Origin: a bacterium | GTDB lineage: Bacteria; BMS3Abin14 | Direction of reading: 5' to 3' | Assembly (NCBI GenBank): GCA_029210545.1 | Contig: JARGFV010000021.1 | Span: 1 to 30,895, forward strand | Length of the DNA: 30,895 nucleotides | Shown here: piece by piece, positions 1,962-30,895 of the stretch | Numbering within the stretch: the stretch's first letter is position 1 | How the letters are laid out: the number at the start of each line of letters is the position of its first letter | Notes under the pieces: generated by a model | Told to the model about the DNA's origin: nothing | Databases searched by the model: none | What the model saw: the letters and a program-made list of their open reading frames with translations, nothing else | Made by a program: the position numbers and the translations under genes

Positions 1962-2258
1962 GTGGGGTCAGTTTCTCACCTTTCACACTTTTCTTAATCT
2001 GAGGGTGATTCGGGAGATGTAGCCCGGCTGAAGTTGGAGGTATTCGCCGATCTCCCTCTGGGTATAGGTATCTGCAATGAAAGCATCGGAGCCTAAAAAG
2101 ATCTGATACTTCGCCTCTTTGAGTGGAGATTCTGATCCAATACCTGCTTTTTCCACCAGCCAGGATTTGTACCGACCCTGCAGTACAGGTCCTATACGTT
2201 GATATTTCCAGTTATCGTAAGAAATCTCAAAAGTGTGAAAGGTGAGAACTGACCCCAC
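1962..2258. mobile_element. 297-bp inverted-repeat element carrying a deleted RAYT transposase
   Basis: The ends are near-perfect inverted repeats: 1962-1992 (31 nt) and 2229-2258 (30 nt), differing by one extra T in the left copy. Each begins GTGGGGTCAG and ends TTTCACACTTTT. Between them lies a single minus-strand open frame with RAYT-like pieces. The terminal GGGGTCAG is a style I associate with REP-associated Y1 transposase units. The element looks like a short, non-autonomous derivative. No clear target duplication is visible. Confidence 0.65.
1983..2258 (-). pseudogene. Internally deleted REP-associated (Y1/RAYT-like) transposase
   Basis: The 91-codon frame opens with GTG inside the right inverted repeat and stops inside the left one. 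Its middle reads GPVLQGRYKSWLVEKA, resembling the QGRYKxxLV segment of Y1/RAYT transposases. It then jumps to IFLGSDAFIADTYTQREI and GEYLQLQPGYISRITLR, resembling the C-terminal helix-turn-helix. The catalytic HUH motif, the active tyrosine and the usual YIHLNPVRAG segment are absent. It is therefore a deletion remnant, unlikely to be active. The first dozen residues are simply translated inverted repeat. Confidence 0.6.
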
Positions 2259-7352: not shown

Positions 7353-7590
7353 TCCGGTGTATCCCTCCTGTAGGTTTAATAGAGCCAGGACTCTGTCGGA
7401 CTATCCGTTTCAGACTCCTGGGTACTATGAGCTATGAACTAAGTTTGACAGGTTCGCAAAAAGTCCAAGCGTAACTTATCGCGAGTCCATCAAGTTTGAA
7501 CCCTTAGCTCGTAGCACCAGGTTCTTGGTTCCCTGCCCTGAGCAAGCCACAGGCCCTGAGCCTGGTCGAAGGGCGGAGCGCGTCGAAAGG
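7353..7590. other. Gap with one copy of the dispersed leader motif
   Basis: No gene is seen. Read on the minus strand, TTGATGGACTCGC and GCGAACCTGTCAA form an imperfect inverted pair around GACTTTTT (about 7446-7492). The rest, near 7530-7590, has CCTGAGC and GGTCGAAGG words typical of interspersed repeats (CCCTGAGCAAGCC, CCTGAGCCTGGTCGAAGG). Confidence 0.4.
7446..7465 (-). repeat. Dispersed leader motif, copy 1
   Basis: Plus-strand form TGACAGGTTCGC followed by AAAAAGTC. The same 20-nt pattern (TGAYA, three to four variable bases, TCKC, AARAAGTC) recurs at 9922-9941, 12525-12544 and 30799-30818. All copies lie upstream of minus-strand genes in the same orientation. This one is about 95 bases before the UPF0114-like gene. 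Confidence 0.6.
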
Positions 7591-8463: not shown

Positions 8464-9921
8464 TTACGTCTCTTCTCTGATCAGCTCAACTTGCAGTTTC
8501 ATCCCCTTGATATCGACAACTCTGATATTAGATCCTTCAGGGGCTTCCCGGTCGCAGACAGCTGACCAGATCTCCCCATGGACCCTGACCTTCCCTTCGG
8601 GAGACAGGTCGGTCGTCGCGACACCTTCCGCACCCGCCATCCCTTCGATCCCCGTAACGGGTTTCCGCTTGTGGGTTCGCATGACCAGCGTCAGCCCGAC
8701 CACAATAAATCCCGCTGAGAATATTGTAGCAGCTAAAATCAGGGATCGGGACAATTGAAGATAGGGGTCAGCGCTTTCAAAAAGCATGACGCTTCCCAGA
8801 AACATCGCGAATGCTCCACCGACGGTGAGCATCCCGTAGGACACCACCTTTACCTCGAGGATGAACAGGATGATCGCCAGCATGATGAACAGCAAGCCGG
8901 CGTAGTTAATGGGAATGACCTGGAAAGAGAAAAAAGCCAGGATGAGGCATATCCCGCCCAGCACCCCGGGCAGGATGACCCCCGGGTTGGCGAGTTCGAA
9001 GAACAGGCCGTAGATCCCCAGCATCATGAGGATGTAGGACACGTTGGGGTCGGCAAGGGCGGCCAGGATCCGGTGACGCCAGCCCATAGGCCGCTCCACG
9101 ACCCGGGCCCGGGCAAGGGCAAGGGTGATCTCTTCGCCCGCAACGGTGACCACCCGCCCCTCCATTGCCTCGAGGAGTTCATCCATATCCTCGGCGACCA
9201 GGTCGATGACGTTGAGCTTGAGAGCCTCGTTCTCGGTCACCGAAACGCTCTCACGCACTGCCCGCTCGGCCCAGTCCGCGTTGCGGCCATGTCTTTCGGC
9301 GATGGACCGGACAAAAGCCACCGTGTCGTTGAGGACCTTTTGCCCCATGACATCGGTGTCACCCGAAGCCGGCGCTCCGGACTCCGGTTCCGATTTCTGT
9401 TCTTCCCCGTTTCCCCGTTTCCCCGCTTCCTGGCCTTGCTCCCCCTCCCCCTCTCGCCCACTCTCCCCCTCGGGTTTTTCCTTTTTCCCCCCAAACGGAC
9501 TCCCCCCCCCGATGTTCACGGGGTGAGCGGCCCCGATGTTGGTCCCGGGAGCCATGGCAGCCACGTGAGCCGCCATAGTGATAAAAACGCCCGCCGAGGC
9601 CGCGCGGGCCCCCGGAGGAGCGACGTAAACCGCCACCGGGATCTCGGCAGCGAAAAGGGCCTTCACGATCTGCCTGGTGGAGGTCATGAGCCCCCCCGGC
9701 GTATCGAGCCGCAGGACCAGCAGCCCGGCACCTTCCCCGGCGGCAGCCGCAAGCTGTTTCTCAATGTAATCGGCGCTCACCGGGCTTATGGGTCCGTCCA
9801 CGGTGATCTGTACCACAACGGGAGCCGGTTCGGTTTCGTCCGCCGATCCGGAGATGGCTCCGCCAGACATCGAAACAGACACCCCAAGGGTCATGGATAC
9901 GATCAGCATGAGGCGGGACAT
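8464..9921 (-). CDS. NfeD-type membrane serine protease (NfeD1b, long form)
   Basis: 485 aa. Signal or anchor at 1-26, ClpP-like protease domain about 34-240, four to five membrane helices about 290-420, and a C-terminal OB-fold NfeD domain about 425-485. The nucleophile is probably Ser109 (GARAASAG) and the general base Lys195 (GQKVLNDTVAFV), by analogy with the archaeal PH1510 protease that cleaves stomatin. Between them, residues about 143-190 form a hydrophilic G/E/K/S/P insert, coded partly by three 8-bp DNA units. It forms the stomatin-operon pair with the slipin downstream. Start at 9921: GAGG lies 6 bases upstream and a signal sequence follows; the upstream 45 open codons are basic, low-quality and run through a REP palindrome. 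Confidence 0.93.
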   Translation of the reverse strand: MSRLMLIVSMTLGVSVSMSGGAISGSADETEPAPVVVQITVDGPISPVSADYIEKQLAAAAGEGAGLLVLRLDTPGGLMTSTRQIVKALFAAEIPVAVYVAPPGARAASAGVFITMAAHVAAMAPGTNIGAAHPVNIGGGSPFGGKKEKPEGESGREGEGEQGQEAGKRGNGEEQKSEPESGAPASGDTDVMGQKVLNDTVAFVRSIAERHGRNADWAERAVRESVSVTENEALKLNVIDLVAEDMDELLEAMEGRVVTVAGEEITLALARARVVERPMGWRHRILAALADPNVSYILMMLGIYGLFFELANPGVILPGVLGGICLILAFFSFQVIPINYAGLLFIMLAIILFILEVKVVSYGMLTVGGAFAMFLGSVMLFESADPYLQLSRSLILAATIFSAGFIVVGLTLVMRTHKRKPVTGIEGMAGAEGVATTDLSPEGKVRVHGEIWSAVCDREAPEGSNIRVVDIKGMKLQVELIREET

Positions 9922-9941
9922 TGATAACCTCGCAAAAAGTC
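9922..9941 (-). repeat. Dispersed leader motif, copy 2
   Basis: Directly abuts the nfeD start codon. The GAGG that serves as its ribosome-binding site lies inside the motif (minus strand GACTTTTTGCGAGG, then TTATCA, then ATG). Confidence 0.65.
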
Positions 9942-9974
9942 TCCTGTAGAGTTTCCGGGAGCCATTTGGCAATT

Positions 9975-10001
9975 GGCGGTCACGCCGTCGGCGTGACCGC
10001 C
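9975..10001. repeat. Perfect 27-nt palindrome containing REP-like copy 2
   Basis: 13-bp perfect arms GGCGGTCACGCCG and CGGCGTGACCGCC around a single T. The core 9980-9996 is TCACGCC-GTC-GGCGTGA. It lies in the 134-base gap between the zinc-ribbon gene and nfeD. With no T-run, termination is unlikely; an RNA-end-protecting or protein-binding REP role is possible. Confidence 0.75.
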
Positions 10002-10055
10002 CGCCAGGATGGAGTCCAGGCAAATTTCTCAATATTGAGTCCATCAGATTACCCA

Positions 10056-11369
10056 TCAGATCTCGACTCCCAGGGTGGAGATCGGAACCGCAAGGCCCTT
10101 GAACGGCTCCACCAGGTCCGGCCCCCTGCGGTGGAAGGGGACCAGGACCAGGGACTGGCTGGTTCCTTTCCTGTTAAAAAGTTCCCGGGGCCCTGTCCCG
10201 GCCACCACATCGGCCATCTCGTCCGCCCCTTCCGGCGGCAGAGCGACCGGGAGGGTCCGCAGCCCCAACCGGCTTTCGTAGGGGATCGGTTCCGCCGGGA
10301 AATCGGCATGATAATACCGGGCTGTCAGGTTGTAAAGGAGCCTCGGTGACCGGACCGAAAAGGCGGGAACGTAGAGGTGCCGGTCTTCTCCCTGTCGTTT
10401 CCAGAAGGGGAGAAAGGTCGTCGCCGCGTCCCGGGCCGGCCGGTTGTTGCCCGCCCACATGCACTCTCTTTCCCGAAGCCTCCCGCCGGCTGCCTCCCAG
10501 CCCCTTGCGCAGGACCTGCAGAACCTCAGGTGGGCACCGGGATCGTCATCCAGGTCGCCGCCGCACTCGGGACAGATAAGGGGCGCCAGTTTCAGGCGGG
10601 TCTCACCCGGAGAACGGCTCTCCTTGAGGTCGAGGTTGTCCAGGAGGGTCTCCATCTCCTCGTGTCTGATCTGCCTGATCAGCGACCCGCCCACCGCGTC
10701 GATGAGCATAAGGCGGATCTGGCGCCCTTCCCGGATCTCTACAAGGGAGAGGGGAAAAAAAAGGATAGAGCTTTGTTCCCACAGCCGGAACCTCTTCTCC
10801 CGGGTGATCTTGAACCCCGGATCCTGCATCCCGTCGAAGAAATCCGCTTCCATCTTCCGGCTGTGCTTTTCCCTTTCCCTCTGGATAGGGGCGAAGGGGA
10901 TCTTGCCGGCGTTTTCCCGGGTGGCCAGGTACAGGTGAAGGGACTGGACACGGTAGCCTGGAGAGAAAAGACCGGGGGAAAGATCCTCGTGGGCCGGCCT
11001 CATGAGATCGAGGTCGCGAGTCTGGAGCTTTTCAACAACCCCCGGATCTCCTTCCAGGACCGTCCTGTGCCCCTGAAGCCACCTGATGGCGTGACCCGTC
11101 GTTCTGTAGAAGGGGCAATAAAAGGGCATGACTGACCGGAGCAGCGGCGGTTTCCACCCGTTCTTCATGGCGATCCGGGTGACGTGGTGGGCGGTCTCCT
11201 GCACGCTGATCTTCGGCTTGATGAGAAAACTCAGCCAGGCGGAGCGGGCGCCCATGATCATCAGTCCCGCACCGCAGTAGCGGCAGCGCGTTCCGGTGGC
11301 CTGCTGGTCGAAGGTGACTTCGCCGCCGCACTGGGGACAATGATGGCTGACGTAACAGGAAAGGTTCAC
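10056..11369 (-). CDS. Zinc-ribbon protein, partner of the SPFH protein
   Basis: 437 aa. An N-terminal zinc ribbon has Cys11, Cys14, Cys29 and Cys32 (CPQC, then CRYC). A second ribbon lies near 265-290 (CPECGGDL, then CRSCARGW). The long segments between show no membrane helices and no enzyme motif that I recognise; KPKISVQETAHHV and MPFYCPFYRTTG are notable conserved-looking pieces. It begins 15 bases after the SPFH gene's stop, in the same frame, with a GTG start and only a distant AGGA as ribosome-binding site. In Bacillus subtilis ydjFGHI, a zinc-ribbon protein also accompanies a zinc-ribbon SPFH protein; the similarity here is of arrangement, not shown homology. Confidence 0.75.
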   Translation of the reverse strand: MNLSCYVSHHCPQCGGEVTFDQQATGTRCRYCGAGLMIMGARSAWLSFLIKPKISVQETAHHVTRIAMKNGWKPPLLRSVMPFYCPFYRTTGHAIRWLQGHRTVLEGDPGVVEKLQTRDLDLMRPAHEDLSPGLFSPGYRVQSLHLYLATRENAGKIPFAPIQREREKHSRKMEADFFDGMQDPGFKITREKRFRLWEQSSILFFPLSLVEIREGRQIRLMLIDAVGGSLIRQIRHEEMETLLDNLDLKESRSPGETRLKLAPLICPECGGDLDDDPGAHLRFCRSCARGWEAAGGRLRERECMWAGNNRPARDAATTFLPFWKRQGEDRHLYVPAFSVRSPRLLYNLTARYYHADFPAEPIPYESRLGLRTLPVALPPEGADEMADVVAGTGPRELFNRKGTSQSLVLVPFHRRGPDLVEPFKGLAVPISTLGVEI

Positions 11370-11384
11370 TGGACCGGGGCGGTC

Positions 11385-12509
11385 CTACTCGATCTTCTCG
11401 CCGCAATGAAGGCAGTACCTTGCCCCCTGGGGGACCTTGTTGCCGCATTTCGAGCAGACCGGTGTTTTTTTTTTGACCTCCTGGCCGCACTGATGGCAGA
11501 AACGGGCATCCGCTGGCAGGTCCTGGCTGCAGCCGCCGCATACCTGGCCCCGGACAACGGGTGTGCCGCAGCGGAAACAGAACCTGGCGTCACCGGGAAG
11601 GGCGGCCTTGCACTGGGGACATGGGTCACCCGCGGATACTGCTGTCTTTCCCGCACCCTCCAGGGTAGACCTTAAAAAGGCGGGCACCATCATCCCTAAC
11701 CCGGCGCCAAGTCCCAACCCCATCCCGGACTCCGCGGCGCCGCCTCCCCCGCCTTCCCCTTGCCCCGCATCGCCCATGAACTGGGCGGCCTTGAACCTGA
11801 GGTAATCCCCTTCGCCGACTGCTGTCATGCTGCCGCGCTCGTCGATAATCTTCTGGACGTCGTCCGGAGGGGTTATGGACTGGATGATGAGGTCGCGCAG
11901 TTCGATACCATACTTGAGAAACTCATCCCTGATCCTGGCTTTGGCTGCGGCGCCCAGCTCTTCGTAGACCTGCGCGAGGTCGAGGATCGACTCCAGGTTC
12001 TCTCCCAGAAGGTCGTTGAGGCGGGAGATGATGACCGCCCGCAGATAGTCTGAGATCTCGTCAGTGGTGTAGATCCCCTGGGTCCCCACCAGCACATTGA
12101 CGAACAGCATGGGCTGGACGACCCTGATGGTGTAGTTGCCGTGGGCCCTGAGCCGCACCATACCCAGGTCCTTGTCCCGGAAAGCAACGGGGTCCCGGGT
12201 GCCCCAGGTCAGGTTCGTGAAGGTCTTCATGGAGACGTAATAGACCGCTACCCTGAAGGGGCTCTTGAAGTTGAAGGGAAGGCTCAGGGCCTTGGTCAGG
12301 AGAGGCAGGTTCTGGGTGGTGAGGGTGTGCCGCCCGGGTCCCAGGACATCCAGCGCCCGGCCGTCCCGGAAGAACACGGCCGTCTGGTTCTCGTTAACGA
12401 CCAGCTGGGCACCGAACTTGATATCACCGGTCCCGTCGACGGGGATCCGGTGGACCATGTCCTTCCCTACGTTATCGACCCATTCGAGAACCTCGATGAA
12501 CTGGCTCAC
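11385..12509 (-). CDS. YdjI-like SPFH-domain protein with three C-terminal zinc ribbons
   Basis: 374 aa. An N-terminal SPFH/Band-7 domain (about 10-240) with FIEVLEWVDN, FGAQLVVNENQTAVFFRDG and LGPGRHTLTTQNLPLL, which is the style of the YdjI or 'virion core' SPFH family, not of slipin. Then comes a glycine-rich linker (about 248-280), followed by six CxxC pairs forming three zinc ribbons (CPQC/CFRC, CGGC/CHQC, CSKC/CLHC; about 297-374). There is no membrane helix at the N-terminus, so it probably works as a soluble or peripheral scaffold. The GTG start has AGGAG 8 bases upstream. It heads the downstream half of the block; a structured repeat separates it from the two helical-protein genes. 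Confidence 0.9.
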   Translation of the reverse strand: MSQFIEVLEWVDNVGKDMVHRIPVDGTGDIKFGAQLVVNENQTAVFFRDGRALDVLGPGRHTLTTQNLPLLTKALSLPFNFKSPFRVAVYYVSMKTFTNLTWGTRDPVAFRDKDLGMVRLRAHGNYTIRVVQPMLFVNVLVGTQGIYTTDEISDYLRAVIISRLNDLLGENLESILDLAQVYEELGAAAKARIRDEFLKYGIELRDLIIQSITPPDDVQKIIDERGSMTAVGEGDYLRFKAAQFMGDAGQGEGGGGGAAESGMGLGLGAGLGMMVPAFLRSTLEGAGKTAVSAGDPCPQCKAALPGDARFCFRCGTPVVRGQVCGGCSQDLPADARFCHQCGQEVKKKTPVCSKCGNKVPQGARYCLHCGEKIE

Positions 12510-12524: not shown

Positions 12525-12634
12525 TGATAGGGTCGCAAGAAGTCCTGGCGGGACTTCCCGCTCAACGGAAATCGAAAAGTGTGATTTTCGCTTTCCTCAC
12601 GGATAAGTGACACCATCGACCAGTCACTTATCCG
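12525..12634 (-). repeat. Structured leader repeat, copy 3 (motif plus hairpins)
   Basis: Begins with the 20-nt motif (12525-12544). Then follow AAGTCC/GGGACTT, a 12-position stem 12567-12578 with 12585-12596 (one mismatch, 6-base loop), and a perfect 12-bp stem CGGATAAGTGAC / GTCACTTATCCG (12600-12611, 12623-12634). A small GCACC/GGTGC stem follows at 12636-12652. It lies in the leader of the SPFH gene and aligns with the copy at 30799-30895. Confidence 0.65.
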
Positions 12635-12662
12635 GGCACCGCTCACAGGTGCGTTGATGATT

Positions 12663-13166
12663 CTAACCGTTTTCTTCCATGCTCTTTCTTCGCCCGTCGA
12701 ATATCTCTGCCAACCGGTCCAGGGCCTGTTCGAGATCACCTGTCCAATCCTGCCCGGTGCCGACGGCCTCCACCTGTCCTACGCACCCTGCCAGTCCTAC
12801 CGATGTTTCCAGAAGGAGGAGATCCACCTCGTAGAGGCGCTCCAGGTCCTCCAGGGTGATCCCCGTCCGGTCGAACCACCCGGCATATCCGGAGGGGGCA
12901 TACCGGATCTCGTCCTCCATCCGCTCAAGCCTGGTGACGATCCTCTCCAGGTTGCCGATGGCCCTCAGGTTTCTCATCCCGCCCGACCTGGACAGGTCGT
13001 TCATGGAGTCGGCAAGCCCGGCCCTGCACCGTGACACCTCGGCGGCGGCTTTTTCCCGGACGGCGAGGTCGGCGGCGCGACGGTTCTCCCTGTCCTGGTA
13101 CCCGGCGATCCCCGGGATGATGCGTGTGATCTTTTCCAGGAGGGCTCCCACTTTCGGTTTTGTCAT
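12663..13166 (-). CDS. Small helical protein of unknown function in the SPFH cluster
   Basis: 167 aa. Starts MTKPKVGALLEKITRIIPG, then IAGYQDRENRRAADLAVREK, a long helix-rich centre (NLERIVTRLERMEDEIRYAP), then SGYAGWFDRTGITLEDLERL and LYEVDLLLLE. No signal peptide or membrane segment. The 'GY..rEnrR.aD..vRe' start and 'ir.aP.GYaG.Fd...i..edLe.LYe.D' centre resemble unnamed proteins that I associate with SPFH/zinc-ribbon neighbourhoods; this is a memory-based link. It overlaps the upstream gene by 4 bases (ATGA), so the two are translationally coupled. A GGAGGAG site precedes the ATG. It is not PspA-like in any motif I can see. Confidence 0.7.
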   Translation of the reverse strand: MTKPKVGALLEKITRIIPGIAGYQDRENRRAADLAVREKAAAEVSRCRAGLADSMNDLSRSGGMRNLRAIGNLERIVTRLERMEDEIRYAPSGYAGWFDRTGITLEDLERLYEVDLLLLETSVGLAGCVGQVEAVGTGQDWTGDLEQALDRLAEIFDGRRKSMEENG

Positions 13167-30441: not shown

Positions 30442-30774
30442 TCACTTCGCCAGCTGGGCCTGAATAAACCCCTCCAGGATGTGCCTGTCCTCCTCGGGCA
30501 TTTCGTTGAACTGTACCCCCATCCCCGGCTTCCGGCCCCTGCCTGGCGGACTGTTCCAGACCACTTTCCCCTTGACCCGTATCAGGTTTTCCTGGCCGGG
30601 CAGTTGAAAGGCCAGTGCCAGTACCGTACCGAGAGCAAGGGGCTCGGATGTCTGGATGAACATCCCACCCTTGCTTATATTGGGCATGAAACTGCAGACA
30701 AGCTCCATGGGGGATTTGAAGGTGACCTCGATCCACACATCCACCCGGGGGTGTTTCCGGTTTTCCACTTTCAT
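30442..30774 (-). CDS. PilZ-domain protein
   Basis: 110 aa, a stand-alone PilZ domain. The c-di-GMP site is visible: RKHPRVDV at 6-13 (RxxxR) and NISKGGMF at 32-39 ([DN]xSxxG). The rest (LALAFQLPGQENLIRVKGKV, then PGMGVQFNEMPEEDRHILEG) is the usual barrel and final helix. It probably binds c-di-GMP and changes a partner's activity in motility, exopolysaccharide or similar; no partner gene is nearby. AAAGGGA lies 8 bases before the ATG. A structured leader repeat lies just upstream. Confidence 0.93.
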   Translation of the reverse strand: MKVENRKHPRVDVWIEVTFKSPMELVCSFMPNISKGGMFIQTSEPLALGTVLALAFQLPGQENLIRVKGKVVWNSPPGRGRKPGMGVQFNEMPEEDRHILEGFIQAQLAK

Positions 30775-30798: not shown

Positions 30799-30895
30799 TG
30801 ATAATCTCTCAAAAAGTCTGATCCGGGACTTTTCGCTCCACGGAAAGGGAAAAGCGTCGTTTTCCCTTTCCTTACAGAGATTACTGATAGATCGC
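30799..30895 (-). repeat. Structured leader repeat, copy 4 (cut by window edge)
   Basis: 20-nt motif at 30799-30818, AAGTC/GACTT, then a perfect 12-bp stem GGAAAGGGAAAA / TTTTCCCTTTCC (30842-30853, 30860-30871) with a 6-base loop. TAATCTCT (30802-30809) pairs with AGAGATTA (30876-30883) as a closing stem. It aligns with 12525-12634. It lies upstream of the PilZ gene. Confidence 0.65.

Follow-up and report, generated by a model that had tools for sequence, protein, structure and literature searches.

Bacterial MITEs, exemplified by Chunjie, are present in tens to more than 100 copies (PMC10969869). The ends of BOX elements resemble those of a resident insertion sequence (PMC3049150), as is the case here, and some members of the IS1182 family have been reported to target palindromes (IS1272, PMC5678879).

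The window analyzed here, a stretch of 30,895 nucleotides from a 2.72-Mb draft genome of 241 contigs (G000), carries two copies of a structured repeat. From its sequence features, the repeat is very probably a MITE family (probability roughly 0.88) whose elements measure about 155 bp, end in terminal inverted repeats, duplicate 6 bp of an intergenic palindromic target, and have an IS1182-like candidate driver. Elements of this kind are already known, and the present family appears to be undescribed in the literature searched; literature matches to the end sequence (human Rap1b) are presumably primer matches and unrelated. The repeat matters because it is an abundant mobile element, accompanied by a transposase that may drive it, in a phylum of bacteria with few known genomes.

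Two Copies in the Window and Their Genome-Wide Family

Two regions of the window had been paired in a first-pass annotation, and both copies are real: each begins with the same end motif, which a small hairpin and then a 12-position stem (6-base loop) follow, and in the stem a C-G pair is swapped for G-C. The swap is at stem position 7 (C-G in copy 1, G-C in copy 2), and the T·C mismatch at position 6 of copy 1 is a G-C pair in copy 2, as had been described. The extents needed revision. Copy 1, previously ended at 12634, runs through a fourth hairpin to about 12661, and the end of copy 2 at 30895 is the end of the contig (C21) and no biological boundary. The features discussed below are as follows.

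7441-7497, unstranded: minimal form of 45 bp (7447-7491), flanked by a perfect target duplication of 6 bp, AAGTTT, at 7441 and 7492
9925-10042, unstranded: diverged relative sharing the A-end (GATAACCTCGCAAAAAGTC...), located at the 5' end of a gene (8464-10056)
11385-12509, minus strand: SPFH/Band 7 gene, downstream of copy 1
12526-12661, plus strand: copy 1, nearly complete from the A-end to hairpin D, with the E-end deleted (alignment with 23 other copies)
12526-12545, plus strand: A-end terminal inverted repeat of copy 1, annotated earlier as a 20-nt motif
12535-12561, unstranded: hairpin A of copy 1
12567-12596, unstranded: hairpin B of copy 1, a 12-position stem with a 6-base loop and a T·C mismatch at position 6
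12600-12634, unstranded: hairpin C of copy 1
12636-12652, unstranded: hairpin D of copy 1
12653-12661, unstranded: remnant of the E-end hairpin and terminal repeat of copy 1, about 19 bases being absent relative to intact copies
12663-13166, minus strand: gene upstream of copy 1, which in element-free relatives abuts the SPFH gene directly or nearly so
30442-30774, minus strand: PilZ-domain gene, downstream of copy 2
30800-30895, plus strand: copy 2, which runs from the A-end through hairpins A and B into the junction with a second module and is truncated by the contig end
30842-30871, unstranded: hairpin B of copy 2, a perfect 12-position stem

Copy 1 starts GATAGGGTCGCAAGAAGTCC... at 12526 and lies between two minus-strand genes; copy 2 starts GATAATCTCTCAAAAAGTCT... 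at 30800. A 21-base pattern spanning the small hairpin and the start of the stem matches twice in the window against 0.02 matches expected, and the folding of both copies beats that of shuffled sequences on either strand (z -3.2 to -3.9).

A sequence search with copy 2 returned at least 40 close copies in the genome, and the search with copy 1 gave the same result. The 13-bp end motif TCGCAAAAAGTCC has 305 exact occurrences in the 2.72 Mb (reversed control, 0), and the core pattern of hairpin B has 150 in the genome (control, 0). Element pairs, target sites, and gene contexts were surveyed in about 754 kb of stretches that include the window, the remainder being covered by pattern search. The 754 kb contain 49 pairs of inward-facing ends separated by less than 300 bp; most of the elements so delimited measure 154-155 bp in all, and element lengths overall range from 45 to 279 bp. 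The ends are inward-facing terminal inverted repeats of about 20 bp (GAYRGRSTCGCAAAAAGTCC), where MITEs have about 4-30 bp, and the elements are, like MITEs, short (less than 500 bp), non-autonomous, and present in many copies.

Read from A to E, an element consists of the A-end GAYAGRGTCGCAAAAAGTCC with hairpin A, followed by hairpin B (arms GGAAAGGGAAAA/TTTTCCCTTTCC), hairpin C (arms AAATCAATGAC/GTCATTGATTT), hairpin D (arms GCGCCCC/GGGGCGC), and the E-end hairpin GATGGACTCGCAAAAAGTCCATC. The row of hairpins is unusually regular. The shortest forms, about 46 bp long, amount to scarcely more than both ends, and composite forms of 234-279 bp contain additional modules. In several composites, GATAGATCGCCAAAGTC-type hairpins connect one hairpin B module to another (L005, L002, and G000:C16:5568-5847), and copy 2 looks, from its sequence, like the start of such a composite. 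Some element copies contain runs of N. Contig ends fall within 170 bp of the end motif in 19 of 41 cases examined, compared with 3% of random interior windows; this concentration indicates that the repeat breaks the assembly, the window's end at 30895 being one case.

The diverged element at 9925-10042 has a differing interior (GCCATTTGGC... and the palindrome GGCGGTCACGCC), and similar elements are found at G000:C8:39107, C3:44583, C6:15377, and C55:764, which suggests a second subfamily. Elsewhere in the window (1973-2248), the two 20-bp arms of a perfect inverted repeat, TTCTCACCTTTCACACTTTT, are 236 bp apart; the repeat is possibly another small element.

Target Site, Candidate Driver, and Distribution

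The 6 bases flanking the element are exactly duplicated in 17 of 41 copies (mean 1.5 and maximum 6 when pairing is shuffled) and agree to within one mismatch in 25 of the 41; no comparable signal was found in these copies at lengths other than 6 bp. Target duplication of this sort is a MITE character. The target is palindromic (TTCAANNTTGAA), with a flank composition of TTC-AANNTT-GAA.

A candidate for the mobilizing enzyme is encoded by a DDE_Tnp_1 gene of 520 amino acids (G000:C1:15775-17337), which is bounded by the ends GACGGCATCGCAAAAAGTATC and GATGGACCCGCAATTAGTCAC. Its domains, DUF772 and DDE_Tnp_1, are those of the IS1182 family, and its best NCBIfam model is IS1182 (E 1.6e-33), with a score of 116 bits that lies below the curated cut-off of 270. 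The homologues from two other genera begin at GACGGACTCGCAAAAAGTATC (G009) and GATGGCTTCGCAAAAAGTATC (G007), so that related autonomous elements with matching ends, as expected for a MITE, are found in G000, G007, and G009, the match being close at one end only. In the G000 element the second end matches the MITE less well, and its flanks, AACCTT and AATATT, fit the AANNTT target, are unlike each other, and form no duplication. A relative, the MAG SZUA-204, also carries the transposase. A PDB sequence search with the transposase gave no meaningful match. Other candidates were rejected: two 3-kb end pairs (C8 and C6) and a 1.6-kb end pair in G006 enclose ordinary genes and no transposase, and the other DDE_Tnp_1 genes in the family have no bounding end motif.

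Because the ends are shared, we infer that the IS1182-like transposase would recognize them in trans and move the MITE, and it may join the MITE to target DNA with a 6-base stagger.

The 12 genomes of the phylum that were sampled all belong to one family. Besides the window's genome, 9 of the 11 other family genomes contain the end motif, from a handful of times to 153 times, and it occurs at most once in the sampled genomes of other families; among the genomes sampled, the repeat is confined to one family. The E-end had no match in the genome_contigs scan and is absent from viral contigs, and the full element had no match among plasmids.

Maintenance of Pairing in the Hairpins

To examine the fold, 24 copies were aligned, drawn from four genomes that represent three genera; 96.2% of stem cells in this alignment are paired, and several copies come from each genome, so the counts are non-independent. 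For the E hairpin the count is limited to its three outer pairs, since this hairpin has two length variants that misalign. Changes on both sides are seen at 17 of 45 pairs, whereas 6.2 are expected after shuffling and none of 500 shuffles reached as high a number, and the covariation score is 0.139, compared with 0.026-0.059 when partners are slid. Part of the hairpin variation is a reflection of subfamily descent, since most copies in the window's genome are similar.

The earlier proposal that the fold has been kept through compensatory changes is thereby upheld and extends to five hairpins across genera. RNA under selection on one strand should show G·T more often than A·C. The half-changed pairs are instead balanced, with G·T in 16 cells and A·C in 23, each at 10 pairs; A·C is about as common as G·T, and therefore selection on a single RNA strand is not supported. 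The observations point to pairing that is maintained at the DNA level, either through selection and function or through hairpin-templated repair, two processes that are not separable here. The hairpins would then be maintained as DNA, by a role of folded DNA in transposition or replication or by templated repair.

Within the MITE reading, there is a substantial chance, if somewhat short of even, that the covariation is unselected, the palindromes of diverging copies being kept matched by replication or repair that uses the opposite arm as its template. The two sides of a pair change together, half-changed pairs being few at some positions (G-C 28, A-T 8, A-C 1). This fits such a process, as do the balanced numbers of the two kinds of half-state (G·T and A·C), which are expected of one acting on DNA. 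Some mismatches are nevertheless branch-wide (C·A at columns 49/66 in copies from G004 and G009), and the keeping of five separate hairpins across genera is explicable by selection too. The selective counterpart, in which the IS1182-like transposition machinery would recognize or process the five covarying hairpins as folded single-stranded or cruciform DNA, seems to us unlikely; if true, the MITE would be an array of structure-based recognition modules and more than just two ends.

Two points of method follow. Covariation between two copies shows a kept palindrome and by itself is no proof of a regulatory RNA, and comparing the frequencies of G·T and A·C mismatches offers an inexpensive way to distinguish strand-specific RNA selection from DNA-level maintenance.

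Gene Context and Comparison with Known Systems

Gene contexts were taken from a simple gene finder and are approximate (there are some errors, and one window gene is called on the wrong strand); by this measure no copy among the 49 falls within a predicted gene, even though coding sequence makes up 85% of the total, in keeping with the mostly intergenic position of MITEs. The 48 copies found between two predicted genes occupy 28 tandem, 11 divergent, and 9 convergent gaps, close to the background of 269, 55, and 58; the convergent share is 19% for the copies (9/48) versus 15% for the background. In tandem gene pairs, a hand count gave 14 copies in one orientation and 12 in the other. One element copy (L010, around 1501) lies directly 3' of the apparent 3' end of a tRNA gene (...GGTTCGAGTCCCG...CTCCA).

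The first-pass annotation had placed both copies in the leaders of genes and had itself named a lack of preference for leaders as evidence to the contrary; there is neither enrichment at gene starts nor orientation bias, and the leader role fails on that ground. All eight relatives with usable sequence upstream of the SPFH gene have an empty site (the contig of a ninth is too short), and in these eight the same upstream gene ends at or near the SPFH start. Copy 1 is therefore an insertion between two neighboring genes, and the empty sites are those expected of a mobile MITE. Position and orientation upstream of orthologues, which a cis-regulatory leader would conserve, are not conserved. Effects on neighbors, such as the parting of the gene pair at 12509/12663, would be side effects. 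A PilZ homologue in G010 (51% identical) is immediately preceded at its start by two tandem partial copies of the element (L152), and no element was found upstream of the homologue in G007, the other of the two checked. The G010 association is not strong evidence for a conserved role, because intergenic copies are so numerous.

That the repeat is a structured RNA leader, either riboswitch-like or an attenuator, under selection ahead of particular genes (SPFH and PilZ, for example) is accordingly most improbable, for all that the predicted fold on the gene strand is stable, the covariation strong, and the G010 homologue provided with copies just upstream. Against these stand the lack of enrichment at gene starts and of orientation bias, the element-free SPFH orthologues, A·C mismatches as frequent as G·T, and the finding of no Rfam match in the window with covariance models at the gathering score. 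Terminator and promoter scans at copy 1 found nothing. Also most improbable is a palindromic repeat of the REP/BIME type that a RAYT transposase (Y1, IS200/IS605-like) mobilizes. Such a repeat would account for the many copies, their location between genes, the palindromes, and the composites in tandem but not for the 6-bp target duplication, lacking in REP/RAYT systems, or the terminal inverted repeats of about 20 bp. Both features would be expected from a DDE enzyme and are not expected from a Y1 enzyme.

As a putative MITE family, the repeat compares most directly with bacterial MITEs such as Chunjie of Geobacter uraniireducens, being likewise short and mostly intergenic, with terminal inverted repeats, target duplications, predicted secondary structure, and both full and partial copies. 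It differs from Chunjie, as judged by description, in its five separate internal hairpins, one of them very GC-rich, and in its 6-bp AANNTT target. BOX of Streptococcus pneumoniae (PMC3049150) is similarly modular and base-paired, with a variable number of internal modules, but has another sequence and host; the modules here are distinct hairpins, and composites reach from 234 to 279 bp. Repeated extragenic palindromes of high copy number also characterize REP/BIME elements with RAYT (PMC2817692, PMC3733652), which are 20-40 bp long, whereas the present elements are about 155 bp and have terminal inverted repeats and target duplications. The IS1182 family, which includes IS1272, is approached through the transposase, whose best match is the IS1182 model at a score under the family cut-off, and through the palindromic target of the MITE; unlike IS1272, which acts by stem-loop replacement, the MITE has a 6-bp duplication.
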